The notes under the pieces: generated by a model
What the model saw: the letters and a program-made list of their open reading frames with translations, nothing else
What the model was told of the DNA's origin: nothing
Database searches by the model: none
Shown here: positions 4,408 to 27,478 of the stretch, piece after piece
Layout of the letters: each line of letters begins with the position of its first letter
Numbering within the stretch: the stretch's first letter is position 1
NCBI RefSeq assembly: GCF_009765865.1
Contig: NZ_LMUQ01000021.1
Span: 63,126-95,979, forward strand
Origin: Acidisoma sp. L85
GTDB lineage: Bacteria; Pseudomonadota; Alphaproteobacteria; Acetobacterales; Acetobacteraceae
Length of the DNA stretch: 32,854 nucleotides
Reading direction: 5' to 3'
Translations under genes and position numbers: made by a program

Positions 4408-4606
4408 GTTCTCGTCCTTGCCGCACCAGTCGAACTTGCCATCATAACAGGCGGCAGTGGGTTGAGCAAAAACCGGGCGCGGGGTCAAAGTTTCGTGCTC
4501 GCAAGCAGTGGATCATAGCTTTCCGGTCTCTCAGGCGGATAATGAGGGCGGCGGATCGCGGCGAAAGCAACACTCGGCTAGAATTGCGTCTATGACCTGC
4601 CTCTGA

Positions 4607-6451
4607 TTGAGCGTCTCAGCCGTAAAGATGGCAAACGGTCGCCCCCGGAGACCGCCTAACGTGATACCCGGACAGGAGGCCAACGTCGCCGCGATGAAAA
4701 TGTTGCCCTGGCGGTTCTCGAGCACTGGCGCTCCACCGAGCGCTCCGCCCTTGGATCCCGATCACGACGAGCGTCTCGACAAGCTGTCGCTGATCATCAT
4801 CGCGCGAGGTGATTGCGACGCTCGCGGGATGGAGCGCGCCCGGCGTATTGCGACCGAGAGTGGACAAAGGCTCGATCGCGTCCTGATCAAGCTTGGCCTT
4901 GTTACGGAACGCGGACTCGTGGATGCCTATGCGGAGCTGCTCGACATCCGTGTCGCGGAAACCGCCCGCTTCCCTTCGGAACCGCTGTTCAAGGAACGCT
5001 TGAGCAGCCGCTTCCTACGCTATGTCCGAGCTATTCCAATTGCCGTAGAGGCGGATCACGTCACGCTCGCCGTCTCCGACCCGCTCGATCGCTTCACATC
5101 GGCGACGATCTCCGCCGCTGTTGGCCTGCCGGTGGTGCTGGAGGTGGCGGTCCCGATCGAATTAGAAGCGGCGTTCGACCGCATCTATCCGAATGTCGCC
5201 CCGGATGGCGAGGGCGCACCGAGCGACCCCGACGGCGATAATATAGAAGAGGATGCGGAGCGACTCAAAGATTTGGCGAGCGAAGCGCCGGTCATCCGCC
5301 TCGTTAGTCAGATCATTTCCCGGGCGGTCGAGGAGCGGGCTTCTGACATTCATTTCGAACCGTTCGAGGATCGCCTACGGGTCCGCTATCGGCATGACGG
5401 TGTCTTGCACGAAGTGGATTCACATCCGGCCCGGTTGACTCCGGCGATCATCTCCCGCGTCAAGATCATGTCGCGGCTTGATATCGCCGAGCGCCGGCTG
5501 CCCCAAGACGGTCGCATCAAGCTCGCCGTGCGCGGACAGGATATCGATCTCCGCGTATCCACCATCCCCTCGTTGCACGGCGAGAATGTTGTTCTGCGCA
5601 TCCTGGATCGCGGCACGGTTTCGTTGAATTATGAAGCCCTGGGGCTCGCACCGGCTGTCGTCAGCCGGTTGAGCAAAGCACTGCACCTTCCGAATGGGAT
5701 TGTGTTAGTGACGGGACCAACCGGCAGCGGAAAAACGACCACACTTTATACGGGAATCATCGAGCTCAACGCGATCATGCGTAAAATCGCCACGGTCGAA
5801 GATCCGATCGAGTATCAGATACCGGGCATCACGCAGACCCAGATCAAGCCGCTGATTGGACTGACCTTCGCGCATGTCCTACGCTCCATTCTGCGGCAGG
5901 ATCCGAATGTCATCATGATCGGTGAGATCCGGGATCTTGAAACGGCGCAGATCGCCGTAAACGGCGCGCTGACCGGCCGACTGGTCTTGTCCACGCTGCA
6001 TACGAATTCCGCAGCCTCCAGCATCACCCGCCTGCGCGACATGGGTCTGGAAGACTATCTCATCACTGCCGTGCTGCGGGGCGTTCTAGCACAACGCCTG
6101 GTACGCAGGCTGTGTGAGGCGTGCCGAACCAGGGTGATGGCACCGCGCGAACTTGTAGATCGCTTCGATCTGGAACGACGTTGTGGTAGCAAGGCAGTTT
6201 GGTTATGGCGGGCTGTTGGCTGTCCCCATTGTCGGGAAACGGGTTATCGCGGTCGGCTCGCGGTGGCCGAATTCCTATCGCCCGACGCGAATATAGAGGC
6301 GATGATCTTTGCGCGCGCGGACCAGTCCGAGATCGAGCGAGCAGCGGTCGCAGCTGGCATGGTGACGATGCTGGAGGCCGGACTTGCTGCGGCTCTGATC
6401 GGCACCACGACGATAGAGGAAGTGGTCCGGACGTTGAGCGGCGACGGATGA
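4607..6451 (+). CDS. gspE: T2SS assembly ATPase GspE
   Basis: GspE is the cytoplasmic hexameric ATPase that powers pseudopilus assembly through GspL and GspF. The N-terminal region (about residues 50-200) has the helical T2SSE_N fold, including RLDRVLIKLGLVTERGLVDAY. The ATPase core has Walker A GPTGSGKTTT at about residues 370-379, Walker B around VIMIGEIRD (about 434-442) and HTNSA shortly after. A four-cysteine zinc site is formed by CEAC (about 503) and CPHC (about 541), as in canonical GspE. The longest frame starts with TTG at 4607. GTG at 4661 (GGAG 10 nt upstream) and ATG at 4694 (AGGAGG 14 nt upstream) are better supported by ribosome-binding sites, so the true protein is probably 585-596 residues. 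First gene of the gsp operon. Confidence 0.95.
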   Translation: MSVSAVKMANGRPRRPPNVIPGQEANVAAMKMLPWRFSSTGAPPSAPPLDPDHDERLDKLSLIIIARGDCDARGMERARRIATESGQRLDRVLIKLGLVTERGLVDAYAELLDIRVAETARFPSEPLFKERLSSRFLRYVRAIPIAVEADHVTLAVSDPLDRFTSATISAAVGLPVVLEVAVPIELEAAFDRIYPNVAPDGEGAPSDPDGDNIEEDAERLKDLASEAPVIRLVSQIISRAVEERASDIHFEPFEDRLRVRYRHDGVLHEVDSHPARLTPAIISRVKIMSRLDIAERRLPQDGRIKLAVRGQDIDLRVSTIPSLHGENVVLRILDRGTVSLNYEALGLAPAVVSRLSKALHLPNGIVLVTGPTGSGKTTTLYTGIIELNAIMRKIATVEDPIEYQIPGITQTQIKPLIGLTFAHVLRSILRQDPNVIMIGEIRDLETAQIAVNGALTGRLVLSTLHTNSAASSITRLRDMGLEDYLITAVLRGVLAQRLVRRLCEACRTRVMAPRELVDRFDLERRCGSKAVWLWRAVGCPHCRETGYRGRLAVAEFLSPDANIEAMIFARADQSEIERAAVAAGMVTMLEAGLAAALIGTTTIEEVVRTLSGDG

Positions 6452-6546
6452 GGAGGGCAGGGCTTGATCTACGGCATCCTCTCCTGGAACTCTGACATCG
6501 TCGGATGCGATACTTTAGACGCACCGACCTTGAACAAGCGCTGAGG

Positions 6547-7764
6547 ATGCCAGCCTACCGTTATGTCGCGATCGATCCCGCCGGGAAAACAGCGCGCGGC
6601 GTGATCGAGGCGGCAGACAAAGAAGCCGTCATTCAGCAGCTTTGGCGCGACGGGCACCTTCCCGTTCGGACGGAGTTAGACCGGGGTGAATCCTTTTGGG
6701 GTCGCCTAAGCTTCGAGTTTGTCCGCGGGAGCTTCCGGCGGCAGGAAGTCGCCAATCTGACGCGTGAATTGTCGATCATGCTCGGCGCGGGCCAGGATCT
6801 GGATCGCGCGCTGAGATTTATGACCGAAACGGCGGTCAACAAACGCGTCATGGATGGGCTCGAGAAGCTTCGGGATGCAGTGCGGGATGGATCTTCACTC
6901 GCCGTCGCTATGGGCCGCCAACCGCGCAGCTTTCCGCGTCTTTACGTCGGGATGGTCCGCGCGGGCGAGGCAGGCGGGACCCTTGCGGCGACGCTTGAAC
7001 GTCTGGCGGTCGTCTTGGAGCGCGAGCGTGGTCTTGCTTCCTCGATTCGGTCCGCGATGATCTACCCTGCTCTGCTGTTGGTCGCTATGACAGGGTCCGT
7101 AGCCTTTCTCTTGACCTCGGTCTTGCCGGAATTCGTACCGCTCTTCGCGCAGAACGGCGCCCGGCTTCCAGCATCAACGCAGTTCCTGATTGCCGCGGGC
7201 CACGCCGTTTCGGCATACGGCCTCTATGCGTTGCTGGCGCTGGCGACACTTGGCCTATTGTTGCGCCAAGCATTGACGCGACCGGGTCCGCGCTTCCTGG
7301 CCGACAGTCTAGTGTTGCGGCTGCCGATTGTGGGCGCCGTGGCGCGTGAGGTTTTAGCCGCTCGATTCAGCCGGACCTTCGGCACATTGATGCTTAACGG
7401 CGTACCGTTGATCGCCGCGCTCGGCATCGTCCGAGAAGCAATTGGCAACACTGCGGCGGTGGCAGCCGTGGACGCTGCGACGATAAATGCCAAGAGCGGC
7501 GCCGGCCTGTCGCGTCCCTTGGCGGAGGCGGGCATCTTCCCGCCGCGCATGATCTATCTTCTGCGTCTCGGCGAGGAAACCGCTCAGCTTGGCCAGCTGG
7601 CGCTGCGCGCAGCCGACATACATGAGGAGGAAACGCGCCTTAAAATTCAACGCCTAGTCTCGCTCTTGGTCCCAGGCATCACGATCGTGATGGGCGCAGC
7701 GGTGGCCGGCATCGTATCCTCCCTCGTCCTGGCGATGCTGAGCCTGAACAACCTTGCAGGTTGA
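6547..7764 (+). CDS. gspF: T2SS inner-membrane platform protein GspF
   Basis: GspF is the polytopic platform protein that couples GspE to the pseudopilus. The start at 6547 gives the family-typical beginning MPAYRYVAIDPAGKTARG and a 405-residue protein of normal length; an upstream in-frame ATG at 6505 adds 14 atypical residues. Two T2SSF repeats are visible, with hydrophobic segments at about residues 170-200, 225-243 and 370-400. The first repeat contains LTRELSIMLGAGQDLDRAL and the second FSRTFGTLMLNGVPLIAAL, with RLGEETAQLG near the end. The stop overlaps the gspH start by 11 nt. In most T2SS operons gspG follows here, but in this window it does not. Confidence 0.95.
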   Translation: MPAYRYVAIDPAGKTARGVIEAADKEAVIQQLWRDGHLPVRTELDRGESFWGRLSFEFVRGSFRRQEVANLTRELSIMLGAGQDLDRALRFMTETAVNKRVMDGLEKLRDAVRDGSSLAVAMGRQPRSFPRLYVGMVRAGEAGGTLAATLERLAVVLERERGLASSIRSAMIYPALLLVAMTGSVAFLLTSVLPEFVPLFAQNGARLPASTQFLIAAGHAVSAYGLYALLALATLGLLLRQALTRPGPRFLADSLVLRLPIVGAVAREVLAARFSRTFGTLMLNGVPLIAALGIVREAIGNTAAVAAVDAATINAKSGAGLSRPLAEAGIFPPRMIYLLRLGEETAQLGQLALRAADIHEEETRLKIQRLVSLLVPGITIVMGAAVAGIVSSLVLAMLSLNNLAG

Positions 7765-8224
7765 GAGTCGAGGGTGGTTGCGGCGCCCAGGCGAGGCGGG
7801 CTTCACGCTAATCGAGGTTCTCGTCGTCATAGCCATTCTTGGCCTCGCCATCGGAATTCTCGTTTCGCGCGGACCTACCCGCAGCGTTGGCTTCGATTTG
7901 CGAAGTTCCGCCGCGGATGTCGCCGAAACGCTTAACCGCGCCCGTTCACAGTCCATCGCGACGGATCGCGTGACAAGTTTCCGAATCGGTTCCGCAGGCC
8001 GGTCCTACGGCATCGACAACGCGGCAACGATAAATCCGCCGCAGGAGGTCGTGTTGGCGATGACGACGGTCGGTACCACGAGACCTCGGACCATCGCTAT
8101 GATCCGATTCGCGCCAGATGGCAGCTCCTCTGGCGGGCAGGTGCTGCTGGTGGCAGGCGCGAGTCGGATGCGGGTGATTGTCGATTGGCTAACTGGCCGA
8201 GTGAGCCTCGCCAATGCGCCATAA
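7754..8224 (+). CDS. gspH: T2SS minor pseudopilin GspH
   Basis: The prepilin motif GEAG|FTLIEVLVVIAILG places the cleavage glycine at residue 16 and the conserved Glu+5 at residue 21, followed by a hydrophobic N-terminal helix. The next part, SAADVAETLNRARSQSIATD, matches the GspH pattern of an amphipathic helix before the beta-rich domain. The protein is 156 residues. It starts with TTG at 7754, inside the end of gspF, and its stop overlaps gspI by 11 nt, so translation is probably coupled. GspH is a minor pseudopilin of the pseudopilus and depends on GspO for leader cleavage. Confidence 0.88.
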   Translation: MQVESRGWLRRPGEAGFTLIEVLVVIAILGLAIGILVSRGPTRSVGFDLRSSAADVAETLNRARSQSIATDRVTSFRIGSAGRSYGIDNAATINPPQEVVLAMTTVGTTRPRTIAMIRFAPDGSSSGGQVLLVAGASRMRVIVDWLTGRVSLANAP

Positions 8225-8645
8225 CAGCGAGACGGGCTTTACTCTGCTTGAGGTGCTCGTGGCCCTGATCATCGCCACTCTCGCACTCACCGCTCTATTC
8301 TCCGGCGCCGTCACTGGCATGCGGTCAGCGAGCCTTGCTGCTCACTACATACAAGCGGTCTCCCGCGCACGGTCTCACCTTGCTGTGCTCGGTGTTGGCA
8401 GCCCGCTAGTAACCAGCACGACGCAAGGTGTTGATGGTAGCGGGTTTCACTGGCGGATCAGCATTCGCCCAGAGGAAACCACGAGCATCGCCATCCGAAC
8501 CGGCGGGTTGGACCGAGCCAGCAAAGCATCGCGTATCGCGATCTACGAGATCAATGTGAGCATAGCCTGGTCGATGGATGGCGGCCTGCGACAGGTTGCT
8601 TTGCATTCCCAGAAAATCGGCCCAACTCCGCGGTTATCCCCGTGA
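8214..8645 (+). CDS. gspI: T2SS minor pseudopilin GspI
   Basis: This 143-residue protein has a very short leader and a textbook prepilin site: MRHNSETG|FTLLEVLVAL, with cleavage after Gly8 and Glu+5 at residue 13. The small size and the position between gspH and gspJ fit GspI, which nucleates the tip complex with GspJ and GspK. The ATG lies inside the end of gspH, and the stop overlaps the gspJ GTG start (GTGA), both signs of coupled translation. The C-terminal domain is poorly conserved, as usual for this family. Confidence 0.88.
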   Translation: MRHNSETGFTLLEVLVALIIATLALTALFSGAVTGMRSASLAAHYIQAVSRARSHLAVLGVGSPLVTSTTQGVDGSGFHWRISIRPEETTSIAIRTGGLDRASKASRIAIYEINVSIAWSMDGGLRQVALHSQKIGPTPRLSP

Positions 8646-9265
8646 CAGACCGCACACGGAAATGCGTCTTCACCCACAGTGCCTGGAAGCAGTGTGGCTT
8701 CACGCTACTTGAGGTGCTGGCCTCGCTTGTCGTACTCGCTTTGCTCGTCTTAGGGTTGGCCCAGGGGATGCGCTTCGGCGTTGCAGCTTATGATCGGCAA
8801 ACACGGCTCACCTACCGCCAAGCCGACCTAGACGCGGTAGACCGCACTTTGCGTCAGCTGATTGAGCAGATCAATCCCGGAACCGCACATGATGCGCCAG
8901 CGATCGCCGGAACACCCGACAGCTTCGAATTTACCTCAGAGCTGCCAGAGGCGGCGGCCGCATGGGGCAGCCGGGACGCGGAGGTCAGGTTGCTGGTTGA
9001 CGGGACTAATCGCCTGCTGATGCGCTGGTCGCCCTATACTCATGCCCTGCCCAACACGCCGCCGGCGGTTGTCGACACTGTACTGCTCGAGCAGGTCGAC
9101 CATGTCGTCTTTAGCTATTGGTCGCGGTCCGGAGAGGCAGGTTGGCGCGGCCGTTGGGACAAAGCGGAGGTGCCTGCCCTCGTCAGGATTCGGATCGTCT
9201 TTCGTGCCGGCAGCGGCAGAGCCTGGCCGGATATCGTCGCGGCGACCCAGCGGGGCCGCCCGTGA
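8642..9265 (+). CDS. gspJ: T2SS minor pseudopilin GspJ
   Basis: The 207-residue product has the prepilin motif KQCG|FTLLEVLASLVVLALL, with cleavage after Gly19 and Glu+5 at residue 24. The segment LTYRQADLDAVDRTLRQLIEQ, and a later stretch with RLLMRWSPY and DHVVFSYWSR, fit the GspJ fold. The start is GTG at 8642, overlapping the gspI stop. Downstream is a 100-nt gap before gspL, the only sizeable gap within this operon, so an internal promoter there is possible. Confidence 0.88.
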   Translation: MTDRTRKCVFTHSAWKQCGFTLLEVLASLVVLALLVLGLAQGMRFGVAAYDRQTRLTYRQADLDAVDRTLRQLIEQINPGTAHDAPAIAGTPDSFEFTSELPEAAAAWGSRDAEVRLLVDGTNRLLMRWSPYTHALPNTPPAVVDTVLLEQVDHVVFSYWSRSGEAGWRGRWDKAEVPALVRIRIVFRAGSGRAWPDIVAATQRGRP

Positions 9266-9365
9266 GTGCATCTAGACGGCGTGACGGCGCGTAAATAAAT
9301 ACCTTGCCTCTTAAGCTGATTGGGGAGGAAGGAGGTCCGACTCTGTAGGAAAGACTTTGTAAAAT

Positions 9366-10430
9366 ATGGCCGACACGATCTTCACATGGTGGGCGCAGCA
9401 GATGCGGAGCCTCGTGCCTGCGCCTCTCGCCAGCCGTGGAGGATGGCGTTCGGTGGTGATTCTTGAGCCCACGGAGGAGCCTGAGGCGACTTCGTTTGGG
9501 GCCGGCGGATTCAGGCTCAGCCTCAGGCGGCGCGGCCGCGAGACAGGGATTGGATACTTCGCCTGCTCTCCTGAAGGTCTCGCCGCGGCCCGGCGTGCTT
9601 GCGGCACGACAAGGCGGCGCCGGAACATACTGCTTCGCCTTCCGAACGGTCGGATCTTAGAACATCGTCTCACCGTCCCCGCGACGGCCGAGGCTCATAT
9701 CGGGCGAGTACTCGCGTATGAGATCGATCGTGTGACGCCTTTTTCCGAGAGCGAAGTCTTTTGGGATTGGGTTATCGAGCATCGCGACCGCAACCGCTCC
9801 CGGCTGTTGGTGAGGCTGTTTCTGATTCCCCGCGCCGCTCTGATCGTGCTGCGGACCGAGCTCGAGAAGGCGAGGTTGCATTTGGCCGCGGTAGAAGGCC
9901 ATGGCTTCTACGGCGACCTCCGTCGCCTCCCTCTCTCCGTCAGGACGCCGGCACGACAGAGGCTAGAGCGCCCTGTGCTGCGGTGCACTGTCGGTGCCTG
10001 CGCTGCTCTGGTGATTGTCGCGCTCGTCTTGCCTTTTGTTCGGCAGCAATTGCGCCTCGATCGACTCGATCAGCGTGTTGCGGAGCTGCAGCCAAAGGTC
10101 TCGGAAGTGCGGCTGCTCCGCAAGCGAATCGCTGGCCAAGCCGCGGGAAGTGAGGTTTTCGAAGCGGAAGAGGCGGAAGTCGGCAGGCCGCTCGATGCGA
10201 TTGCGACTATCACCAAAGTTCTACCGGACAACACATTTTTGACTGCGCTTAATTTGTCGCAGAGAAGCTTGGGTCTGACTGGTCAGTCCGGTGATGCCGC
10301 CGCTCTTATTGCTGCACTGTCGCGCGATACCGAGATTCACACACCAAGTTTTGCAGCACCGGTGATGACGGCCCCGAGTGGGAGTGGGAGCCTGTTCGTC
10401 ATCCGTGCAGAGCTCGTACCCCAACAGTGA
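9366..10430 (+). CDS. gspL: T2SS inner-membrane protein GspL (PilN-type)
   Basis: GspL recruits GspE to the inner membrane and pairs with GspM. This 354-residue protein has a cytoplasmic region (about 1-200) with a GspL/PilM-like stretch (EAHIGRVLAYEIDRVTPF), then one membrane span at about 205-225 (CAALVIVALVLPFV). A short coiled coil (RLDRLDQRVAELQPKVSEV) and a PilN-like ferredoxin-fold periplasmic domain (LDAIATITKVLPDNTFLTAL) follow. This short layout is usual in alphaproteobacterial systems. AGGAAAG lies 12 nt before the ATG; a stronger GGAGGAAGGAGGT at 9324-9336 is too far upstream to serve it. gspM follows after 13 nt. Confidence 0.85.
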   Translation: MADTIFTWWAQQMRSLVPAPLASRGGWRSVVILEPTEEPEATSFGAGGFRLSLRRRGRETGIGYFACSPEGLAAARRACGTTRRRRNILLRLPNGRILEHRLTVPATAEAHIGRVLAYEIDRVTPFSESEVFWDWVIEHRDRNRSRLLVRLFLIPRAALIVLRTELEKARLHLAAVEGHGFYGDLRRLPLSVRTPARQRLERPVLRCTVGACAALVIVALVLPFVRQQLRLDRLDQRVAELQPKVSEVRLLRKRIAGQAAGSEVFEAEEAEVGRPLDAIATITKVLPDNTFLTALNLSQRSLGLTGQSGDAAALIAALSRDTEIHTPSFAAPVMTAPSGSGSLFVIRAELVPQQ

Positions 10431-10443
10431 AGACCGCGGTCAA

Positions 10444-11016
10444 ATGATCGACCTGCTGCCCACAGGACGGCGCGGCCAGTTCCTGGCAATCAGCGTGACG
10501 ATCCTGCTGCTTGCCACCGCATGGTTTGGCATAGCAGTTCCCTTAATCAGCTGGTACGATAGCCGGGCTCAAGCCCTGATGCAGCAGGCAATGCTGGAAC
10601 AGCATATGGAGATGATCGTGCGGGCTGTGCCAACCCTGCTCGACGAAGCGCGGGCGGCGCGTGGCGCTTCATCGCCGCGAGGTATCGTTTTCGATGCATC
10701 AAGCGACGCCGTCGCCGGTGCGACGCTGCAGCAGACAATTCAGCGATTTGCGCACACGGCCGGATTAACCTTGGCGAGCGTGGAGACACTAGCGGCTGCT
10801 CAGCGTGCTGCCTTCCGCCGCATCGCGCTGAGGGTTAGTTTCACCGCATCATGGCCGTCGCTCATACGCTTCCTCCAGGAACTGAACACGGCCGAACCGC
10901 GCGTTCTGGTCGATGATCTGCAGCTTGATGCGGCGCCGGTCATCGGCCAGTTCCATGGTGTCCCGCTCAGTGTCAGCCTTACCATCCTTGCTTTCCGGGC
11001 GGGAACCTCATCGTGA
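10444..11016 (+). CDS. gspM: T2SS inner-membrane protein GspM
   Basis: The ATG at 10444 starts a 190-residue protein beginning MIDLLPTGRRGQFLAISV, with a single membrane span near residues 12-34 and then a periplasmic ferredoxin-like domain. The end is ALRVSFTASWPSLIRFLQEL followed by PRVLVDDLQL, a pattern typical of the T2SSM_b family. GspM stabilises GspL and connects the ATPase platform to the pseudopilus. A longer frame opening at 10378 would overlap gspL and adds an implausible N-terminus. The stop overlaps the next gene's GTG start (GTGA). Confidence 0.85.
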   Translation: MIDLLPTGRRGQFLAISVTILLLATAWFGIAVPLISWYDSRAQALMQQAMLEQHMEMIVRAVPTLLDEARAARGASSPRGIVFDASSDAVAGATLQQTIQRFAHTAGLTLASVETLAAAQRAAFRRIALRVSFTASWPSLIRFLQELNTAEPRVLVDDLQLDAAPVIGQFHGVPLSVSLTILAFRAGTSS

Positions 11017-11687
11017 CCCGACGCGTGATCGTCGGATTTGGTGCTGTAGCAATTGCCTTGGGCGGCGTTATCGCGATCGAGCTGGGGCCGGCGCCATATT
11101 TGGCCCGTTCTTGGCCGCATCGGGTCCCCTTCGAGCATCTGGCCATTGCGGGAACGCTGGGCGCGGCTGCAGATCAGACTCAGGCTTTGGTTTCGACCTC
11201 GCTCGGCCGCCCACTTTTTGAGCCCTCCCGGAGGCCGCCTGAATCCGATGTGCGGAAGGAATCGCACTCGGGCATTCCGCGCCTCTCCGGAATTGTCATT
11301 ACGCCCATAGGTCGATCAGCCATCTTCGAGTCTAAAGACAACCTTGAGACGGTTGTCTCGGCCGGGGCTCATCTCGACGGGTTTCTGGTGCAGTCGATCG
11401 GTGACGGCAGCGTGCTCCTGATCGGGCCTAGCGGACCACGGATAATCGAACCCACTTTCAAGTCCAATGCCCCATCGACGGGCACCACGGCCGTGTCACC
11501 TTCAGGGTCCTTGGCCTCAATACCGTCGACATCCCAGGCGCCCTCGCCATTCGCTAGTTTGAGAGGCCTGACGGGCAGGCCCCTTGGACTGATTGCCCAC
11601 CCTGACGAAGTCGAAGTCCCCTCGGGGAATCAGCTCGAGGTAGCACCACGCATGCCGGATCAATCTGGACTTGGAGCTTCACCTTGA
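11013..11687 (+). CDS. T2SS GspC/GspN-type connector protein
   Basis: A GTG start overlapping gspM gives a 224-residue protein with one N-terminal membrane anchor (about residues 4-26) and then a periplasmic region. SLGRPLFEPSRRPP precedes a compact HR-like domain, RLSGIVITPIGRSAIFE to GSVLLIGPSGPRIIEP, the part that in GspC binds the N0 domain of the secretin. There is no PDZ domain; the last 75 residues are rich in Ser, Pro and Gly and look disordered. The family is named GspN or GspC in different annotations. Its place just before gspD fits a connector between the inner-membrane platform and the secretin. Confidence 0.75.
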   Translation: MTRRVIVGFGAVAIALGGVIAIELGPAPYLARSWPHRVPFEHLAIAGTLGAAADQTQALVSTSLGRPLFEPSRRPPESDVRKESHSGIPRLSGIVITPIGRSAIFESKDNLETVVSAGAHLDGFLVQSIGDGSVLLIGPSGPRIIEPTFKSNAPSTGTTAVSPSGSLASIPSTSQAPSPFASLRGLTGRPLGLIAHPDEVEVPSGNQLEVAPRMPDQSGLGASP

Positions 11688-14011
11688 GACGTCTGGCTGC
11701 AATCGCCTCCGCCTTCTTTGTCGCTGGGTGTACAGCGCAGGCCGATCTTCCTCCCCAGAGGCTGGCGCGCCCGGTGCTCGCCTCCGGCAGTCGGTTCGAT
11801 CCGCGGGTGAATGGCGCGTTGGGAGCGACCGATCTTCCTCCAACGCCCGGCGTTTCCTACGCGACGCCGGCCGCCGTGACTTTGCCGGCAAATGCGCCGG
11901 GTGCGACGGGTGGCGATGTTTCTCTCAATTTTACTGATACTGATATCCGCCAGATAGTTGCTCAGATTCTCGGTTCAATCCTGAAACTTAACTACTCCAT
12001 CGATCCGGCAGTCCACGGCAGCGGAACCTTGCATACCGTCACTCCTGTCGCTCGAATCCAACTCCCGCAAATCTTGCAGGCGCTTTTGGCGCAGAACGGT
12101 GCGGCACTCGTGCAATCCGGCAGCTTCTACCAGGTCGTGCCCACCAAGGTCGCCGCCGCCACGACCTCGCTCTCTGCAGGTGACGCCATGGCGGGCGGCG
12201 GGGTGCTGCCTCTCAGATACGCCTCGGCGCCGGACCTAGCACGAGTTCTGCAACCTTTCGTAGGGCAGGATGCAAAGGTCGTCGCGGACCCGAGCAGCAA
12301 CAGCCTGCTGATCAGCGGTAGTTCTGAGGCGCGAGAGACGCTCGGTGCGTTGGCGAAGGCCTTCGACATCGACGAGCTTGCGGGCCAATCGTATATCCTG
12401 TTGCCCGCCCCGCAAGGTTCCACCAATGATTTCGCGATCTCATTTCAGGACGCTTTGCGCGCTCGCGGAAGTGGCCTCGCAAATGTCGTCCGCGTTGTGC
12501 CGATGGAACGCATCGGATCTGTTTTGGTGGTGGCATCGCAACCTCAACTTATCGAGGAAGCGAGGCGGGTTTATGATCTGATTGAACGACAGCAGCGGCT
12601 CACGGTGAGAAGTTGGCATGTCTTTTACCTGCAGGATACCAAAGCGAATGATGCCGCCTACGTCTTGCAACAGGCTTTCACACCGAACAATGTGACAGCC
12701 GTTCCCAGTGAGAACACGCCGAACCAGGACGCAAGTGGCTCAGGCGCTTCAGCACATGCGGGAGTTGGCACGGGCACAGGTTCCGGGAGCGGCGGGGGCG
12801 CGGGGACGACCAGTAACGGTTTGAATGGCCTTGCAGGCTCTTCGGGAATCGGAGGCGGCAATCCCCTGACGGCGGGAGGCGGGGGCGGCATCATGGGATC
12901 CTCGGGCGCCAGTCCGACAGACAGCGGTTCCTCGAGCAACGGGGGCGGTACGCCGACGGCAACTGCGTCAAATCCGCTGCTCGGCGGCCTTGATTCCGGC
13001 GGCGGCACAACCGACACGAACACGCTGCGGATCATCCCAGACACGCAGAACAACTCGGTTTTCACCTATGCGACTCAGCAGGAAGAAGAGGCGATTGATG
13101 CGATGTTGCACAAGATCGACATTCTTCCGCTGCAGGTCCGCATCGACGCGACGATCGCTGAAGTGACACTAAACAACCAGCTACAGTACGGCACGCAGTT
13201 CTTCTTCAGATCGGGCGGAGTGAACGCGATACTCGACACTACTGCCGCGACCGAGCCTCTGGGTGCCATCCCGCGGAATACCGTATTGGCTACAACATTT
13301 CCCGGCTTCATCTTGGCCGGCAACGGTGGTGGCGGCGCGCCAATCGCACTACAGGCGCTGCAAGCGGTCACCACCGTTCACGTCCTGTCATCTCCCGAGT
13401 TGCTGGTCCTCGATAACCAAACCGCCCATCTTCAGGTCGGCGATTTAGTGCCCTACCTAACCTCAAGCTCCCAAAGTACGCTTGCGAACTCCTCTGTCAT
13501 CAACAGCGTGAATTATCAGCCGACGGGCGTAATCATGAATGTGACCCCCCGCGTCAACAGTGGTGGGCTTGTGACGTTGGACATCTCGCAGGAGGTGAGT
13601 GCCATCAATACCGCTATCCCGACCTCCGCCACGGGCATCATGTCACCGACTTTCTCTGAGAGGAATGTGACGTCGCGAGTTGTGGTGCAGGATGGGCAGA
13701 CCGTTGGCCTGGCGGGCCTTATCACCGACAACCTGAGCAAGAGCAGCTCGGGCATCCCGTTCCTGAAGGACATCCCTATCTTGGGGCTTTTAGCAGGCAC
13801 TCAGAACAACCAACGAACCAGGACGGAGCTTCTCGTCCTGATCACTCCACATGTGCTCTACGATCAGCAGGATGCCCAGGCGCTCACGGCCGATCTGCAA
13901 GACCAACTGCGCAACGCGGCAGGCGTTCCCGCTGAGCTGAACGGTCTAGACACCCCGGGACTCGACGATCCGCAGCAGCGCATCCGTCGAGCGCTGAGAA
14001 CGGGGCCGTGA
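11684..14011 (+). CDS. gspD: T2SS lipo-secretin GspD
   Basis: GspD forms the outer-membrane gate. The 775-residue protein starts at a TTG overlapping the previous stop. Its signal peptide ends FFVAGC, a lipobox with Cys16 and Thr at +2, which predicts an outer-membrane lipoprotein. Domains in order: N0 (about 75-115), N1 (about 120-160), N2 (about 170-220), N3 (about 305-340 and 445-475) and the secretin core (about 485-730). The core contains VLSSPELLVLDNQTAHLQVG and SGIPFLKDIPILGLL, then TELLVLITPHVL. About 105 residues (341-445) of Gly/Ser/Thr-rich sequence interrupt N3. No separate pilotin gene is obvious, which fits self-piloting as known for HxcQ. Confidence 0.95.
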   Translation: MRRLAAIASAFFVAGCTAQADLPPQRLARPVLASGSRFDPRVNGALGATDLPPTPGVSYATPAAVTLPANAPGATGGDVSLNFTDTDIRQIVAQILGSILKLNYSIDPAVHGSGTLHTVTPVARIQLPQILQALLAQNGAALVQSGSFYQVVPTKVAAATTSLSAGDAMAGGGVLPLRYASAPDLARVLQPFVGQDAKVVADPSSNSLLISGSSEARETLGALAKAFDIDELAGQSYILLPAPQGSTNDFAISFQDALRARGSGLANVVRVVPMERIGSVLVVASQPQLIEEARRVYDLIERQQRLTVRSWHVFYLQDTKANDAAYVLQQAFTPNNVTAVPSENTPNQDASGSGASAHAGVGTGTGSGSGGGAGTTSNGLNGLAGSSGIGGGNPLTAGGGGGIMGSSGASPTDSGSSSNGGGTPTATASNPLLGGLDSGGGTTDTNTLRIIPDTQNNSVFTYATQQEEEAIDAMLHKIDILPLQVRIDATIAEVTLNNQLQYGTQFFFRSGGVNAILDTTAATEPLGAIPRNTVLATTFPGFILAGNGGGGAPIALQALQAVTTVHVLSSPELLVLDNQTAHLQVGDLVPYLTSSSQSTLANSSVINSVNYQPTGVIMNVTPRVNSGGLVTLDISQEVSAINTAIPTSATGIMSPTFSERNVTSRVVVQDGQTVGLAGLITDNLSKSSSGIPFLKDIPILGLLAGTQNNQRTRTELLVLITPHVLYDQQDAQALTADLQDQLRNAAGVPAELNGLDTPGLDDPQQRIRRALRTGP

Positions 14012-14808
14012 CTAAAATCGACATCGTTCCGCGATCGCAGCGAGGCTTCGCTCTTCTCATCGTTCTCTGGACGATGGTCCTGCTGTCACTTCTATTTTCG
14101 CGAATTGTCGGGCAGGGGCGTAGCGAGATGGAGATCGCCAGTAATCTTCGCAATGCGGCGGCTCTCGGGGCCGAAGTAGACGGCATCGTATATCGGGCGA
14201 TCTTTGACCTTTTGAGTCCGGCGGCGGCGGTTATGCCCACCGCCAGCATAACATACCGGCTGAAGCTGCCGGACGGCTTGGCGACGGTCGAGATCACCGA
14301 CCTCGGTGGCAGGGTGAATCCCAATATCGCCTCGCCGGCGCTGATGTCGGCCCTCCTACAACAAGTAGGTGCTCAGCAAATGGATGCGGCGTCGGTTGCC
14401 GAAGCAATCTTGGACTGGCGATCACCCGATACCCAAGGTCGATTCGAGGCTCCTGCCTATCAGCAAGCCGGTCTCACCTATGCCCCTGCCGGAGCGCCTT
14501 TCGCCAGCATCGACGAGCTCGGTTTAGTTCTAGGTATGACGCCTGATCTGCTCGAGAAGTTAGCGCCTCATCTTTCTCTCTACAATCGCGACAATCCAAG
14601 TTTCGATCTGGCCGATCCCGTCGTGAGGCACGCACTAACGGCTTTGGGCAGTTCGGAAGGAAATCAGCAAAGGCGGCCTCCCCGTGATGTCACCATTGTC
14701 GCGGCCATTTTGCGTAAGGACGGAACGCGCAGCGAACGGAGATCCGACGTTGAACTCCATATCTCCTCCGTGCCGGAAGGGTTCCGCATTCTCACCTGGG
14801 AGGATTGA
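14008..14808 (+). CDS. gspK: T2SS tip pseudopilin GspK
   Basis: GspK caps the pseudopilus with GspI and GspJ. The 266-residue protein begins at a GTG overlapping the gspD stop. Its prepilin motif is QRG|FALLIVLWTMVLLSLL, with cleavage after Gly13. The usual Glu+5 is replaced by Ile18, as is normal for GspK. The large globular domain includes VEITDLGGRVNPNIASPAL and AILDWRSPDTQGRFEAPAY, then the SAM-like-fold segment FASIDELGLVLGMTPDLLEKLAPHL. It is the last gene of the contiguous gsp run; the ferritin-like gene starts about 100-130 nt later. Confidence 0.92.
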   Translation: MTKIDIVPRSQRGFALLIVLWTMVLLSLLFSRIVGQGRSEMEIASNLRNAAALGAEVDGIVYRAIFDLLSPAAAVMPTASITYRLKLPDGLATVEITDLGGRVNPNIASPALMSALLQQVGAQQMDAASVAEAILDWRSPDTQGRFEAPAYQQAGLTYAPAGAPFASIDELGLVLGMTPDLLEKLAPHLSLYNRDNPSFDLADPVVRHALTALGSSEGNQQRRPPRDVTIVAAILRKDGTRSERRSDVELHISSVPEGFRILTWED

Positions 14809-14813
14809 GCGTT

Positions 14814-14844
14814 TGATCACGAGAACGTGATAATTGTTTAAAAG
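14814..14844 (+). promoter_or_regulatory. Possible ECF-type promoter for the ferritin-like gene
   Basis: TGATCA (14814-14819) is followed after 19 nt by TAAAAG (14839-14844), or after 18 nt by TTAAAA. This resembles the TGATC...TAA pattern reported for RpoE of the RpoE-ChrR system in Rhodobacter sphaeroides. It lies about 60-90 nt upstream of the two possible starts of the ferritin-like gene. An inverted repeat, ATCACG-AGAA-CGTGAT (14816-14831), overlaps it and could instead be an operator or a weak terminator for gspK. One motif match is weak evidence. Confidence 0.35.
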
Positions 14845-14935
14845 TATTAGGGGTTTGGTGATGCATCCGAAATCCACCGATCTTGGTAAACGGTGGTGAG
14901 CCTAAATGAAATGCACGCACAGTGAAGGGTTGAAG

Positions 14936-15832
14936 ATGGCAAACCTATCGCAGAACGACGAACTTGAAGGCATTCCAAGACGCCGCGGGCTTTTGAAAGG
15001 TCTGGGGCTTGGCATCGCTGGCACTGCTGCGCTCGCCGCCGCCGGAACCGCGGGTCTGGGCTTCGGCGTCACGCCGGCCCACGCGGATGCCGCAACGGAT
15101 GCCGAGGTTTTTAATTTCGCGCTGAACCTCGAGTATCTCGAAGCAGAGTACTACCTTCGCGCCGTCACTGGTAATGGAATCCCGGCCAGCAGCGGCGGTA
15201 CTGGCGCTGTTACTGGAGGCTCGCTCGTCCCATTCGAGAATACGGCGATCGCGTACCTCGCGCAGAAGATCGCCGTGGATGAACTTGCCCATGTTAACTT
15301 TATTCGATCAGTGCTTGGCGCGTCCGCCGTCGCCGAACCGGCCATCGATCTCGTGAACAGCTTCACCGAGCTCGCCGTTGCCGCGGGCCTAATCGTCTCG
15401 GGGCAGACGTTCAACCCCTTCGGGAGCGAGGTAGACTTTCTACTTGGCGCTTACGTCTTCGAGGACGTCGGCGTAACAGCCTATGCCGGTGCCGCTGCGT
15501 TGCTGACGCCAGCAACTATCCCGTATGCGGCGAGTGTGTTGGCCGTGGAAGCCTATCACGCCGGTGCCATCCGTCAGCGTCTAGCTGAAATCGGCGGATC
15601 GGCAGCGACCAACCAAATATCGGCACTACGCCAGACGCTCAGCGGCGTCGGTGATAACGGTCTAAATTATCAAAATAACATGTTCAACGTGACCAACGTT
15701 GACTCTCAGGGCCAAGCTTACCGCCGTACGCCGCAGCAGGTCTTGAGTATCGTATACGGCGGAGGCACGTCTAGCGGCCTCTTCTTCCCGAACGGCGTGA
15801 ATGGTGCGATTACATCTACAGCAGCTGCCTAG
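14936..15832 (+). CDS. Tat-exported ferritin-like protein
   Basis: The product resembles the Ferritin_2 family of exported ferritin-like proteins related to plant desiccation protein PCC13-62. From the ATG at 14936 (GAAGGG 6 nt upstream) it has 298 residues; an ATG at 14906 adds ten. A twin-arginine signal, IPRRRGLLKGLGLG, precedes an Ala/Gly-rich core and a probable cleavage site after AHA at residue 50. Candidate diiron ligands in a four-helix bundle are Glu66, Glu69 or Glu71 (LNLEYLEAEYY), Glu116/His119 (DELAH), Glu176 (FEDVG) and Glu205/His208 (EAYH). Tat transport suggests that it folds, perhaps with metal, before export. Lying directly after gspK, it is the best candidate T2SS cargo. 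Iron storage, oxidation or a structural role all remain possible. Confidence 0.88.
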   Translation: MANLSQNDELEGIPRRRGLLKGLGLGIAGTAALAAAGTAGLGFGVTPAHADAATDAEVFNFALNLEYLEAEYYLRAVTGNGIPASSGGTGAVTGGSLVPFENTAIAYLAQKIAVDELAHVNFIRSVLGASAVAEPAIDLVNSFTELAVAAGLIVSGQTFNPFGSEVDFLLGAYVFEDVGVTAYAGAAALLTPATIPYAASVLAVEAYHAGAIRQRLAEIGGSAATNQISALRQTLSGVGDNGLNYQNNMFNVTNVDSQGQAYRRTPQQVLSIVYGGGTSSGLFFPNGVNGAITSTAAA

Positions 15833-15876: not shown

Positions 15877-16932
15877 TCAATGGGGCAAAGCAATGACGTC
15901 GATATGATCTGTTCCTCTGGCTTCATAGACAGAGAGGATGTTGCCGATATCTTGTGTGGGCGGCCCTATCGAACCGTCCGGTTCGATTACAGCGATTTTG
16001 TATCCAAAAGCCACTATCCACATGAGATATTCGGTCCCCTCGATGCCAGAAATGCCGGGCATCATAGCCGGGCTTAGCTCACTCACGATGATGGGCCGAC
16101 AGCGATTGATGGTCTTTGACGCGCCAAGCAGGGCATTATATTCTGCGCCCTCAACGTCGACCTTGATAAGATCAATCATCGCCGCCTCGGGTACGATAGT
16201 GTCGACCGCTAGGCACGGAACCGATTCGGCTGCCAGCATAGCCTCGAGGTCTCGCGGCAAATCAGAGGTCGTTCCATTCGAGTGCGAGGTGTTGAGCACC
16301 AAAGTGCCGGTTCCACGACCGGCTGCCGTCTGGCAAATCGTTATATTTTCAAAGCCATTCTCGCGGCGGCTCGCTTCAATAAGTCGCGCATTTCGAGGAT
16401 TGGGTTCGATCGCCAGGACGTGGCCAGCTGGACGAACGAGGGCCGCCGACAGGAGAGTGAAATATCCGATATTGGCTCCGATATCGATGACCTGCATGCC
16501 CTCTTTCAGAACACTCCGGAATACGGCTGTCACGTCAAGCTCATAGTTGCTGTCGCGGACGTACCGCCCTACGGCTGCATCATCGCGCGCGGAGTAAATC
16601 CGGAAGCCAGGCACTTGCGCCAGCGTGACGTCGCCTAAGCTTGAGTTCCCGATGAGGCTACGTCGAGTGAACTCAAGACTGTTGAGATAACTGGCAACGA
16701 CACCAGCAAGATCCTGACCGACACTCATCGTGTGGCCAATCCATTCTTCCTTGTTAGGATGGCGCCCAAGTAACAACCGGAAGCAGGCTCGAATATCCGC
16801 CTCTGTTGCCGACTGATCAAAAACTCTCTCGCCGGGCAGTGCCAACTGATTATGACGATTGCCGGATGGTCTGGGCCAACGCATTTGGACAGCCATCCTC
16901 CCGGATTTGTGTGAACCAAGTATTGGAACCAT
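15877..16932 (-). CDS. FkbM-family methyltransferase with DUF4214-like N-terminus
   Basis: The C-terminal two thirds form a class I SAM-dependent methyltransferase of the FkbM type. Motif I is QVIDIGANIGYFTLL (about residues 147-161), an acidic ribose-binding segment HVLAIEPNPRNARLIEAS follows, and LIKVDVEGAEYNALLGA is the FkbM signature (about 263-279). FkbM enzymes usually O-methylate sugars or polyketides. The first 100 residues contain ADIRACFRLLLGRHPNKEEW and DLAGVVASYLNSLEF, which resemble a DUF4214-like repeat found in surface and glycan-related proteins. The longest start is 16932; the ATG at 16884, with GGGAGG upstream, is a good alternative. It diverges from the big glycosyltransferase gene and converges on the ferritin-like gene. 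Confidence 0.85.
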   Translation of the reverse strand: MVPILGSHKSGRMAVQMRWPRPSGNRHNQLALPGERVFDQSATEADIRACFRLLLGRHPNKEEWIGHTMSVGQDLAGVVASYLNSLEFTRRSLIGNSSLGDVTLAQVPGFRIYSARDDAAVGRYVRDSNYELDVTAVFRSVLKEGMQVIDIGANIGYFTLLSAALVRPAGHVLAIEPNPRNARLIEASRRENGFENITICQTAAGRGTGTLVLNTSHSNGTTSDLPRDLEAMLAAESVPCLAVDTIVPEAAMIDLIKVDVEGAEYNALLGASKTINRCRPIIVSELSPAMMPGISGIEGTEYLMWIVAFGYKIAVIEPDGSIGPPTQDIGNILSVYEARGTDHIDVIALPH

Positions 16933-17055: not shown

Positions 17056-20000
17056 ATGACACTTGTCTCCTACGCCCAAAACTTCGAGGATATCCTGCTG
17101 TGGCGTGCCTTAAGGCACGTCGAGAAGGGGTTCTACATCGATGTCGGTGCAGCGCATCCGGACATCGATTCCGTAACTCGCAGCTTCTATGATCGGGGCT
17201 GGAGCGGCATCAATATCGAACCGACGCCTGAGTTTAGCGCCCGACTAGTCGCCGCCCGACCGCGAGATGTAAATCTGAAGGTGGCGCTGGGTGCGGAGGC
17301 CGGCTTGGCGGAGCTTTTTGTAGCCGAAGGAACTGGCCTGTCGACGCTCGATCCGGCTGGGGTCGGATCAATCGAAGAGCACGGCTTTCCGGTACGGCGC
17401 GAGCAGGTAACTCGGGAGACTCTTGCCGAAATTTGCCGCTGTCATGCGCCGCCTGTCATCCATTTCCTTAAGATTGATGTAGAGGGGACCGAGCGCGCTG
17501 TCATTGCAGGTGCCGACCTCAAAGACTACCGGCCATGGATCATTCTTGTGGAAGCAACAGCACCGATGTCTGCCGTCGCTTCGCACGGCCAATGGGAGCC
17601 GATGCTTCAGGCAGCGGGATACCACTTCGTCTGGTTCGATGGGCTCAATCGATTTTATGTTTCCGACGAAAAATTAGCGGAACTCTCGCACGCATTCCTT
17701 GTTCCCCCGAATGTCTTCGACGATTTCATTCGCGCAGCAGATAGCGAATGGGCTCGACGAATCCACGACGCAGAGACACGCGCCGCAGCCCTTCTAAAAC
17801 GCGCTGTTGCGGCGGAGCAACAGATCGCGATAGAGGCTGCCAGGGCCGCGGTCGCAATATCAAGCCTGAGCCAAGCAAGGAAACTGGAGGAGGACCTAAT
17901 CTATCTACGCAAGCATGTTGAGGAGGCCGAGCGCGATCGAATTGCAGCAGAGGTGCGCGCGCAGGAACAGGAGAAGAATGCGGTTGAGCAGTCCATCCGC
18001 GCGACCGCGGAAATGGAACGCGCGGCGTTACTTGAGGGAAGCCAGCGCGAGGCAAGGGAGGCATTCGATGCGATTATCCGAAGCACGTCCTGGCGTGTCA
18101 CAGCGCCGCTCAGGCGACTTCGCGCAAAGAGAGCGATGTCCGGGCCCACGCTGGCGCCGCTCGCGTTGCCGCCTCAGAAGCAACCGCTCGCCCCAGTCCT
18201 TCCATCACTCATGCAGCCCATCACTTTCCGGCCACTACCGCCTCGGGCAGCACGTGGCGTGAGCGGCCAGAATCGGCGCGTCGTCCATCAGTTTCATGCC
18301 GGATCTGCCGTTTCCGACGCGGTTACCAATTCTCTTTTGTTGACCCGGCGGCTGCTTCGGTCGCTAGGCTATGTCAGCGATATATTTGTTGAGCACCGCG
18401 ATGAGAGACTTTCTGATGAACTTCGCCTGCTCGATGAGTTACCGAAACATGATCGCTACGTGCTTATTGCCCACCATTCTATGGGTTATGACGGATTTCA
18501 CCGGGTGGCGACGCTGCCCTGCCCCAAGATTCTTATGTATCACAACATAACCCCTCCGGATCTTCTGGCAGGCGACGCATACCTACAACGCTACGCCGAG
18601 CTTGGCCGGCTGCAGCTTGCGGAGTGGAGGGGTCATGTTGTCGCGGCGCTCGCCGATAGTGAATTCAACGCATTAGAGCTACGGCAGCTAGGCTTCGATC
18701 CCGTGCAGGTTTGCTGTCTTCTTTTCGACCCGGTCGCGCTGCTGGCGCGAGCGGTCGCAGAGGAGCGGGCCGAGGAAGAAGAACCTTTTACCATTCTCTT
18801 TGTCGGACGCGTTTGCCGATCGAAGGGACAGATCGAGCTGGTAGAGGCGTACGCGGCCTTCCGCGCCGAATATGGGACGCCATCGCGCCTCGTCCTCATC
18901 GGCCGCCATGGCGGCGACGAGGACGGCTATTTTCTGGAGATCAGGGAGCGTATCGCCGACTTGGGCCTCGAGGACAGTGTTCTGATGACGGGTCTTGTCT
19001 CGGATGCGGTCCTCCATAGCTGGTACGCCAAAGCCGATATTTACCTTTCCCTAAGTCGTCACGAGGGCTTCGGCGTGCCGCTGGTTGAGGCCATGGCTCA
19101 TCGGGTTCCAGTGCTCGCACTTGCATCGGGTGCTGTCGCCCATACGCTTGTCGGCAGTCAGGGCCTTTTCAGGGAGGAAGATCCGGAGGCGATAAGTAAA
19201 CGCTTATTGGCGGCTGCCAGAGACGACGCCTTGAGGCGTTCGATCCTCGTCGCACAAGGCTGCATAATCGAGCGTTTTTCGCTCGAAAAGCAGCAGCCGG
19301 TGCTTCTGCAGGCCTTAGGCGCCGCGGGCGCTGCTCCTCCGATCCCCTCCGAGACGCGCGAACTGCTTTGCGCGACAATGCAATTTACGGTCATGGGCCA
19401 TGTCAACGGCAACTACAGTTTGGCAGCCATCAATCGAAGCCTCGCCCTTTGTCTCGAGGCATCCTGCCTGGGCTCGGCTAGACTTGTGCCCGTCGAGGAA
19501 GAAGCAACGGATCGGCGCCTCAACATTCCAGACAGCCAAAGATGCGCGATCGAGGCCCTAATTGCGCGTCAACGACCGGGCACCGGTCCCGAAGTCGTTA
19601 TCAGCCAGCATTACCCGGTGCATGTGCCGGCGGACAAAGGTGATCTTGCTCTAGCCTATGTTTTCTGGGAAGAGTCTATCATCCCTCGCAACATCATTGA
19701 GACCCTCAACAACGATTTTCGCGGCGTTCTGTCGCCGTCTCGTTTCGTAACAAAAGTCTTAATCGATTCCGGCCTAACGCTTCCAATCCATTATGTGGGC
19801 TTCACGCCCAATCTCGGTGCCTTTCGAACCATTGCCGATCAGAGGCGACGTTCGGTTCGGGAGGCCCGCCCGCTTACCTTCCTTCACGTGTCTTCGGCCT
19901 TCCCTCGCAAGGGCATTGACCTCCTTCTAGAAGCTTATCGGCGCGCGTTCCGTGCGACCGATGATGTTCGACTCATCATCAAATGCTTTCCCAATCCGCA

Positions 20001-21606: not shown

Positions 21607-21743
21607 GGAGGCGCGAATGAGGACCCGGAGACTTGTTACAAGCAAGACGCTGACAAGAGGCCGCCCTGAACGCCGGTCAGCGAACCGGATCGGATGTCCG
21701 GGTTTCAGCTGCCCAGGTGTGTGGTCGCTCGGAGATCGAATTA

Positions 21744-23979: not shown

Positions 23980-24669
23980 TTGGGTCGTCCAACCGACACG
24001 CAGATCAAATGCGCGGCATCGTGCTTGAGTGGAGGCAGGATCTTTTATGGCCAAGGCAATATATCTGAGCCTTTTAAAGCAAATGTCGGAGACGTAGAGT
24101 TGACTGCTGGGAACGACTCCCTTGCGCATCTCCTCAATAAGCTGGAGGAGAAAGACGAAGCATATCGACTGCTCGTTGATGCCCATGGCCGCTTGCTGCA
24201 CGTGCGGGCGAACCGGTACGCTCGGCTTGAGACGAGACTTCATACTAAGCTGCGGCTAATGGAGGAAGAGCGCACCAGTACTAGGGCGAGCTTGGCGCGC
24301 TTGGCGGACGAGCTTTCGGAGGTAAGATCGGATTTGATGGAAGCTGAGATTGGATCGAAACGAACCGCAGGAGAGTTGGCGGATCTGCGAAAGCAGCTTG
24401 CCCTTGCGGACGCTCGTATCAATGGTCTTTTGTCATCCAAAAGTTGGAAAATGACCGCGCCGTTACGCGGCGGAACACTGTTGTTCGTGGCGTTCCGAGC
24501 GATTGTGCGCAGGCTCTGCCAGCGCTGTTTGCAGTTTGTTAAGGTCGTGGTTCTGCGACTGCACTCGCTTAGGAAGCCTGCGGCAATGCCGCGCGACAGC
24601 AGCTCAGCGGTTGAACGCTTTGAAGATGGGGCTGGCCAAAGGCCGCCGTCTGGGGATCGACGTGAGTGA
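23980..24669 (+). CDS. Coiled-coil protein with the SWKMTAPLR glycosyltransferase-linker motif
   Basis: No enzyme domain is visible. The longest frame uses TTG at 23980; TTG at 24100, with GGAG 8 nt upstream, is a likelier start. Most of the protein is a charged heptad-rich helix (about residues 48-150), for example LAHLLNKLEEKDEAYRLLVD and ELADLRKQLALADARINGLL. Then comes SSKSWKMTAPLR and a hydrophobic, basic tail. The same order, coiled coil then SWRVTAPLR, links the methyltransferase to the glycosyltransferases in the 1516-residue protein. Its stop (TGA, 24667-24669) overlaps the probable GTG start of the next gene, so the two may form one split enzyme. Confidence 0.65.
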   Translation: MGRPTDTQIKCAASCLSGGRIFYGQGNISEPFKANVGDVELTAGNDSLAHLLNKLEEKDEAYRLLVDAHGRLLHVRANRYARLETRLHTKLRLMEEERTSTRASLARLADELSEVRSDLMEAEIGSKRTAGELADLRKQLALADARINGLLSSKSWKMTAPLRGGTLLFVAFRAIVRRLCQRCLQFVKVVVLRLHSLRKPAAMPRDSSSAVERFEDGAGQRPPSGDRRE

Positions 24670-27365: not shown

Positions 27366-27478
27366 GAGGTTCCCCGGCGCTGCCGGTCTCGACTTCCCGC
27401 TTGGGGGCAGCACCCGCGGCGGCAAGGCATGGAGATGAGGGCCAAGCACAATGGGGCGAGATAACGACTTGACACACG
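27366..27478 (-). pseudogene. Frameshifted relic of a lytic transglycosylase 5' end
   Basis: The minus strand just upstream of gspG resembles the first third of the intact lytic transglycosylase gene at 29157-29573. A shared TATCTCGCC lies near the start. One frame then gives ALPPRVLPP against ALPPRVLPS, and a second frame gives VETGSAG against VEGGSAG, which contains the catalytic Glu. Small deletions separate the two frames, and similarity ends after about 110 nt. No protein can be made. The relic overlaps the 5' end of the longest gspG frame. Confidence 0.6.

Follow-up and report, generated by a model that had tools for sequence, protein, structure and literature searches.

A Tat-type ferritin-fold protein recurrently linked to type II secretion genes in Acetobacteraceae is a probable secretion cargo

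Introduction

Why a gene for a ferritin-like protein should adjoin the genes of a type II secretion system (T2SS) is the question raised by a terminal stretch of 32,854 nucleotides (hereafter the window) in a 96-kb contig of Acidisoma sp. L85, whose genome belongs to the Acetobacteraceae. An earlier note, made from the sequence alone, had proposed that the protein is the dedicated cargo of this T2SS and reaches the exterior as a ferritin after export by the Tat pathway. A RepA_C gene identified by Pfam (608-1675, minus strand) suggests that the contig is plasmid-borne; the nearest relative locus (L002) resides on a plasmid, and the T2SS module appears to be plasmid-borne in Acidisoma.

Results

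The secretion genes of the window

The features relevant to the question are listed with strand and family matches.

4607..6451, plus strand: gspE, secretion ATPase with an N-terminal MshEN domain (T2SSE 5.3e-134, MshEN 2.6e-9)
6505..7764, plus: gspF (T2SSF 1.8e-43)
7754..8224, plus: gspH, pseudopilin (GspH 7.1e-5; XpsH-like 1.3e-18, below cut-off)
8214..8645, plus: gspI, pseudopilin (N_methyl; XpsI-like 5.1e-13, below cut-off)
8642..9265, plus: gspJ, pseudopilin (N_methyl; GspJ-like 7.4e-8, below cut-off)
9366..10430, plus: gspL (PilN domain 1.7e-7, and position)
10378..11016, plus: gspM (T2SSM_b 3.4e-23; NF040576 above cut-off)
11013..11687, plus: gspC-like protein (motif RPLF..RRP..PRL.G, kept in six T2SS loci)
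11684..14011, plus: gspD, secretin with lipobox VAGC (TIGR02517, 382.9 bits against a cut-off of 351.35)
14008..14808, plus: gspK, minor pseudopilin (T2SSK_1st 1.7e-15)
14863..14888, plus: ECF-type promoter-like motif GCATCC-N17-GTA, also upstream of other Acetobacteraceae homologues
14936..15832, plus: FER, Tat-type Ferritin_2 protein of DRB0118 type, 298 residues from the likely start, proposed T2SS cargo
15877..16932, minus: FkbM methyltransferase (PF05050 4.7e-21), recurring in FER loci
17056..21606, plus: FkbM methyltransferase fused to glycosyltransferase domains, 1516 residues (PF05050, PF00534)
21717..23852, plus: glycosyltransferase (PF00534)
24503..26578, plus: glycosyltransferase (PF00534)
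27451..28011, plus: gspG, major pseudopilin, start probably further in (T2SSG 6.4e-30)
28424..29143, plus: gspO, prepilin peptidase (A24_N_bact 7.4e-23, Peptidase_A24 3.1e-18)
29157..29573, minus: lytic transglycosylase-like protein, LT (SLT 20.6 bits, just below the cut-off of 21.3)

Pfam and NCBIfam searches define a T2SS run at 4607-14808 with the gene order E-F-H-I-J-L-M-(C-like)-D-K. GspE and GspF score far above their Pfam cut-offs and below those of the NCBIfam equivalogs (592.4 against 630.25 and 342.5 against 424), and the pseudopilins G, H, I, J and K together with the peptidase O are all found in the window, H to K scoring below their NCBIfam cut-offs. The gspC-like gene, for whose product Pfam and NCBIfam searches returned no family above cut-off, is assigned to gspC by inference. 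About 12.6 kb beyond the main run, and separated from it by the FkbM gene, the FkbM-glycosyltransferase fusion and two glycosyltransferases, lie gspG and gspO. The gsp run described earlier is thus present, yet not complete in itself, since gspG and gspO are found at 27451-29143 and the gspC position has no Pfam match, while the lipo-secretin is borne out by the lipobox at the start of the GspD product. LT adjoins gspG in many T2SS loci of Acetobacteraceae. The secretion machine itself is an ordinary T2SS.

Besides its MshEN domain, the window GspE carries a weak match to a c-di-GMP motif below cut-off. A small conserved lipoprotein-like gene (3982-4488, minus strand), divergent from gspE and 40% identical to its counterpart at L002:9110-9568, is a possible T2SS accessory, and the tRNA-like gene that ARAGORN called at 3103-3175 (minus strand), its anticodon undetermined, is probably spurious.

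A dinuclear-metal protein with a Tat-type leader

FER matches Ferritin_2 (PF13668) with an E-value of 9.6e-36 and 123.4 bits against a cut-off of 24.7. The starts of its orthologues and the promoter-like motif make position 14936 a likelier start than the listed 14906, and the gap to gspK is accordingly 127 or 97 nt, in agreement with the initial description of a twin-arginine protein of this family within about 130 nt of the gsp run. The predicted set of diiron ligands was also confirmed, as the two-metal ligands are complete: E76, E126, H129, E186 and E215 do not vary among the 62 homologues that were aligned, and E79 and H218 are kept in 57 of these. Gly189 occupies the position of Asp135 in helix 3 of RvFeMP-1, a tardigrade metabolite phosphatase. 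In paralogues of FER, mostly in tandem, E79G, G189C and H218Q are changed jointly (12 rows, 8 distinct genes; loci L082, L083, L084, L085, L087, L003, L092 and L173), and three further paralogue rows carry changes but keep H218. Judged from these replacements, the second metal site of the paralogues has apparently been lost, and they may perhaps act as a partner subunit.

A sequence search of solved structures with the single FER protein as query gave no match. Repeated with a FER profile, it returned nothing beyond a designed helix bundle (E 0.11). Foldseek found nothing below E 0.001, its best hit (0.049) being the apo form of RvFeMP-1, and in VIA-align the likeness of the fold to RvFeMP-1 is clear and the top-ranking structure is something other than a cage ferritin. 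Since the structure sequence search gave nothing, the relationship to RvFeMP rests on Pfam membership, on the fold and on DRB0118 of Deinococcus radiodurans, a PF13668 protein that is 43% identical to FER over 276 aligned columns and shares with it the E-x-x-H motifs, the RR leader and a glycine in place of Asp135. If an upstream start is assumed, DRB0118, in contrast to FER, has a lipobox, and the annotation of the surrounding 6.7 kb contains no gsp gene. RvFeMP-1 (PDB 8KCE, 8WAI, 8W9K), with 15% identity, contains an Ig-like domain and Asp135, whereas FER has another C-terminal extension. FER thus shows the homology and fold of the DRB0118/RvFeMP metabolite phosphatases with Gly189 in place of the helix-3 aspartate, a residue that is essential in RvFeMP-1, whereas DRB0118, with Gly194 at this position, still has activity (RvFeMP-1 paper). 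The ferritin fold and the two-metal ligands are therefore retained from the original proposal, and a role in iron storage is not, as the nearest relatives are DRB0118 and RvFeMP-1 rather than iron-storage proteins. The features of the sequence are best explained by placing FER in the DRB0118/PCC13-62 branch of PF13668, as a dinuclear-metal protein instead of an iron-storage ferritin.

The leader of FER contains RRRGLLKG, a hydrophobic stretch and a cleavage-like AHA end; this assignment, like all Tat and lipobox calls, was made by eye and script. An RR pair is found in the leader of 45 of the 46 Acetobacteraceae FER proteins examined and a lipobox in none, while a lipobox is present in 9/20 Acidobacteriota and 2/2 betaproteobacterial homologues. 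In Acetobacteraceae, a soluble protein exported by Tat and followed by a T2SS would therefore form a coherent route, whereas homologues from Actinomycetota should need only Tat.

Linkage between FER and T2SS

For a survey within the family, 200 Acetobacteraceae genomes were searched for Ferritin_2 and T2SSM_b, the stretches around matches were mapped with window genes by tblastn and their open reading frames grouped by conservation-ranked clustering; besides the FER loci, T2SSM_b loci were taken in part (60 stretches plus two). FER is present at 100 bits or more in 25 of the 200 genomes, with 13 of the 38 genomes with a Ferritin_2 match falling below 100 bits and counted as lacking FER. In 12 of the 25, at most 700 bp separate FER from a T2SS gene, with LT included among these genes and a distance of about 0.1 kb in the window; in a 13th genome the distance is 3.3 kb. 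By rough arithmetic, about 0.3-0.4% of a genome of 4-5 Mb belongs to a T2SS cluster with such margins, and chance would therefore predict a fraction of one linked case. The 13 genomes span 10 genera, and one of them contributes an Acidisoma plasmid (Acidisoma sp. PAMC 29798) with the order gspEFHIJLM-hyp-DK, FER, gspG, LT, FkbM, FkbM-GT (the FkbM-glycosyltransferase fusion) and GT (glycosyltransferase). Across the linked loci FER is placed after gspK, beside LT or gspG, between gspH and gspL (the type of L070 and L118) or before gspD. In the remaining 12 genomes there is no T2SS gene near the strong FER match in the sequence examined, which covers about 10 kb on each side in G056, G086, G071 and others and ends with short contigs in some.

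The association extends to whole genomes: T2SSM_b is found in 23/25 genomes with FER compared to 53/175 others (p 3e-9, kinship ignored). The two exceptions contain only secretin matches below cut-off, in G128 a fragment resembling gspD (226 bits) on a different contig and in G108 a weaker match of 129 bits. Co-occurrence merely through kinship or large genomes is made less likely by catalase, which as a control shows no association (14/25 compared to 102/175, p 0.67). On a FER tree of 79 out of 134 rows, in which 28 rows of other groups were drawn at random, linkage changes 10 times, and the linked rows divide into 14 and 3 between two large groups. On a GspE/F/D tree of 57 loci, which left out 21 of 78 for too little sequence (five of them FER-linked), it changes 6 times, at least four of these forced by starred branches; both counts cover gain and loss alike. 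The link is thus clustered but recurrent. Together these observations support the view that, within Acetobacteraceae, this FER subfamily is recurrently linked to T2SS, both physically, in at least four arrangements of the genes, and at the level of genomes. While the linkage implied by the earlier note was found, the word 'dedicated' was not sustained. As the window genome contains only one T2SSM_b match and one secretin above cut-off, its T2SS may serve other cargo too.

Beyond this survey the picture is different. A contig scan confirmed at least 569 FER loci, and among the best 80 of the 569, two or more T2SS genes are found in the flanks of six: L107 (a Proteobacteria MAG), L109 and L111 (Acetobacteraceae MAGs), Pararoseomonas, a Rhodopila MAG and Aerophototrophica. 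L107, L109 and L111 are taken to be the same DNA as survey contigs of G053, G132 and G181. The other 74 include loci from Actinomycetota, Acidobacteriota, rhizobia and sphingomonads, and also from Acetobacteraceae. From Alphaproteobacteria 289 genomes were sampled, and 18 of them besides that of the window contain Ferritin_2 at E 1e-12 or better. T2SSM_b is present in 7 of these 18 compared to 19/270 others, and in none of the 18 on the same contig as Ferritin_2, a result that applies to T2SS of the T2SSM_b type only. Ferritin_2 as a whole is therefore not a T2SS family. According to the earlier note, a family found mostly away from gsp genes would refute the proposal; the entire family speaks against it in this sense, but the Acetobacteraceae, where 13/25 genomes are linked, do not.

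A promoter-like motif upstream of FER

Of 39 sites with GCATCC-N14..17-GTA in 694 kb, 19 are located ahead of FER genes. The motif precedes 19 FER genes in total, with L072, L074, L082, L085 and L110 among the loci besides the window. GCATCC itself is found in 26/45 upstream regions of Acetobacteraceae FER genes (shuffled mean 3.3, largest 9) and in 16/89 of other groups (shuffled mean 7.0, largest 15), while within the window alone the motif is not significant (2 found compared to 0.5 expected). Since it is common to T2SS-linked and unlinked genes, FER probably has its own control. The consensus pattern of general-stress promoters is absent, and downstream of gspK there is a terminator-like hairpin of a kind whose matches there are little above chance (4 compared to 1.9). 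In L074 the motif also occurs upstream of an ECF sigma match, at a distance of 222 nt. Behind gspO in the window (30896-32196) lie a gene for an ECF sigma factor and, after it, one resembling ChrR-cupin (26.0 bits, just below the cut-off of 27); this pair also follows FER in Paracraurococcus (L122).

Other occupants of the same place

In the 62 T2SS loci without FER, exported-type neighbours were sought, ten were named by Pfam and their relatives within 3 kb were counted; the families were picked after seeing the neighbours, the counts have no background rate and the script did not list the window FER itself. GH32 proteins are found in 8 of the 62 (in six the distance to LT is 20-89 bp, in two that to gspK is about 2.1 kb), PF04185 phosphoesterases in 6, molybdopterin enzymes in 3, SCO1-type proteins in 3 and a solute-binding protein in 1, whereas 41 contain none of the counted families. 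Among the 17 GH32, phosphoesterase and molybdopterin neighbours, the distance to LT or gspG is 20-350 bp in 11 cases; two others adjoin gspK and two gspO. FER takes up the same position, with a distance of 52-152 bp to LT or gspG in eight loci. The FER cluster L066 (G053) also holds a phosphoesterase gene 1.9 kb from gspO, and the occupants are therefore not strictly exclusive. In Aerophototrophica FER faces gspK, and a PhoX gene is located inside the T2SS cluster of Aerophototrophica crusticola (L131:12516-14909). Tat-type molybdopterin enzymes, encoded beside T2SS clusters in L216:4099-6228, L235 and L242, are possibly another cofactor-loaded cargo.

A report on the acetic-acid bacterium Gluconacetobacter diazotrophicus describes a T2SS operon, lsd, that is needed for the exoenzyme LsdA encoded nearby, which is a levansucrase and, unlike FER, not a metalloprotein; for the GH32 exolevanase LsdB, the passage concerned mentions only transport to the periplasm (PMC2765452). 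A neighbour of a T2SS thus need not be its cargo, and the place is a suggestive guide rather than proof.

The FkbM-glycosyltransferase module

A long match to the FkbM-glycosyltransferase fusion is present in 14/25 FER genomes compared to 6/175 others, where 20 of 34 matching genomes, picked by eye, were counted as having the long match, and in none of the 62 T2SS loci without FER. The fusion also stands beside FER in L082, L084, L087 and L106, which have no core gsp gene nearby in the sequence examined. The link of FER to the FkbM-glycosyltransferase is as tight as its link to gsp; glycosylation before Tat export or a surface glycan as partner would be obvious ways to account for the former.

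Discussion

The combined evidence suggests, with a probability that we put at roughly 0.6, that FER is a Tat-exported metal protein of the DRB0118 type and a T2SS cargo with a hydrolase or protective role, which occupies an exchangeable cargo place. The protein would fold and acquire its metal in the cytoplasm, cross the inner membrane by Tat, as its leader predicts, and leave the cell through the co-located T2SS, of which its linkage and co-occurrence make it a probable cargo. Outside the cell or on its surface it may act as a metal-dependent phosphohydrolase or as a protective enzyme during drying or oxidative stress, as the two characterised relatives suggest. Transcription of its gene would probably start at a separate promoter of ECF-sigma type and not at that of gsp, and the T2SS of Acetobacteraceae would provide a cargo place, often beside LT and gspG, with FER as one of at least four occupants.

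Several observations count against FER as cargo: the 12 of 25 genomes in which it is unlinked, the abundance of the family without T2SS, the promoter-like motif of its own, the equally tight link to the FkbM-glycosyltransferase, the glycine in place of Asp135 and the 41 of 62 loci without any counted family. Some of these would suit a periplasmic stress protein kept inside the outer membrane, which shares a plasmid-borne envelope island with T2SS and glycan genes and is not secreted, as would the homologues that are lipoproteins, the RepA_C gene on the contig and the plasmid location of the nearest relative locus. We regard such confinement as rather unlikely in light of an adjacency found repeatedly, on separate T2SS branches, in varied arrangements and in 10 genera, even inside the gsp cluster, of the secreted-type enzymes that hold the same place in 17/62 loci and of the association with T2SS in 23/25 genomes. 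The module next to FER raises another possibility, compatible with its role as cargo, namely that the FkbM-glycosyltransferases modify FER or build a glycan to which it binds, with the T2SS merely delivering FER or a common partner to the surface. The distribution of the long fusion, its presence beside FER where core gsp genes are missing and an acyltransferase_3-type gene in four FER loci speak for this proposal, which we nevertheless consider tentative and doubtful, since 11/25 FER genomes have no long match and loci of the L070/L118 type no FkbM-glycosyltransferase in the sequence examined. That FER would instead form a true ferritin cage oxidising, storing or scavenging iron outside the cell appears highly improbable, despite the complete two-metal ligand set and the ferritin fold.

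With FER as probable cargo, its route would resemble that of the PhoX-type phosphatases and the phospholipase C of Pseudomonas, which reportedly leave the cell by folded Tat export followed by T2SS and belong to different protein families. No T2SS with a ferritin-like or desiccation-related cargo is described among the matches listed in the open-licence literature, and in passages of an Asaia secretome paper the only ferritin is one of the Dps type. The new part is thus the proposed cargo and its exchangeable place.

A more far-reaching combination, which we judge unlikely, would be a mobile surface module under control of an ECF sigma factor, in which the cargo place of the T2SS is held by a Tat-exported FER that is loaded with metal in the cytosol, glycosylated or glycan-anchored by the FkbM-glycosyltransferases and active as an extracellular dinuclear phosphohydrolase against drying and oxidative stress. 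If true, it would be the first T2SS built around a ferritin-fold protein and would offer a general way to infer T2SS cargo from gene order in Acetobacteraceae. For the 'desiccation-related' proteins of PF13668, for which both the actual substrate and the physiological role are described as open (PMC11616004), FER as a probable T2SS cargo would provide a location and a delivery route that can be tested by a single deletion, and our results suggest that in the poorly studied T2SS of Acetobacteraceae the cargo may be read from the gene beside the LT/gspG pair.
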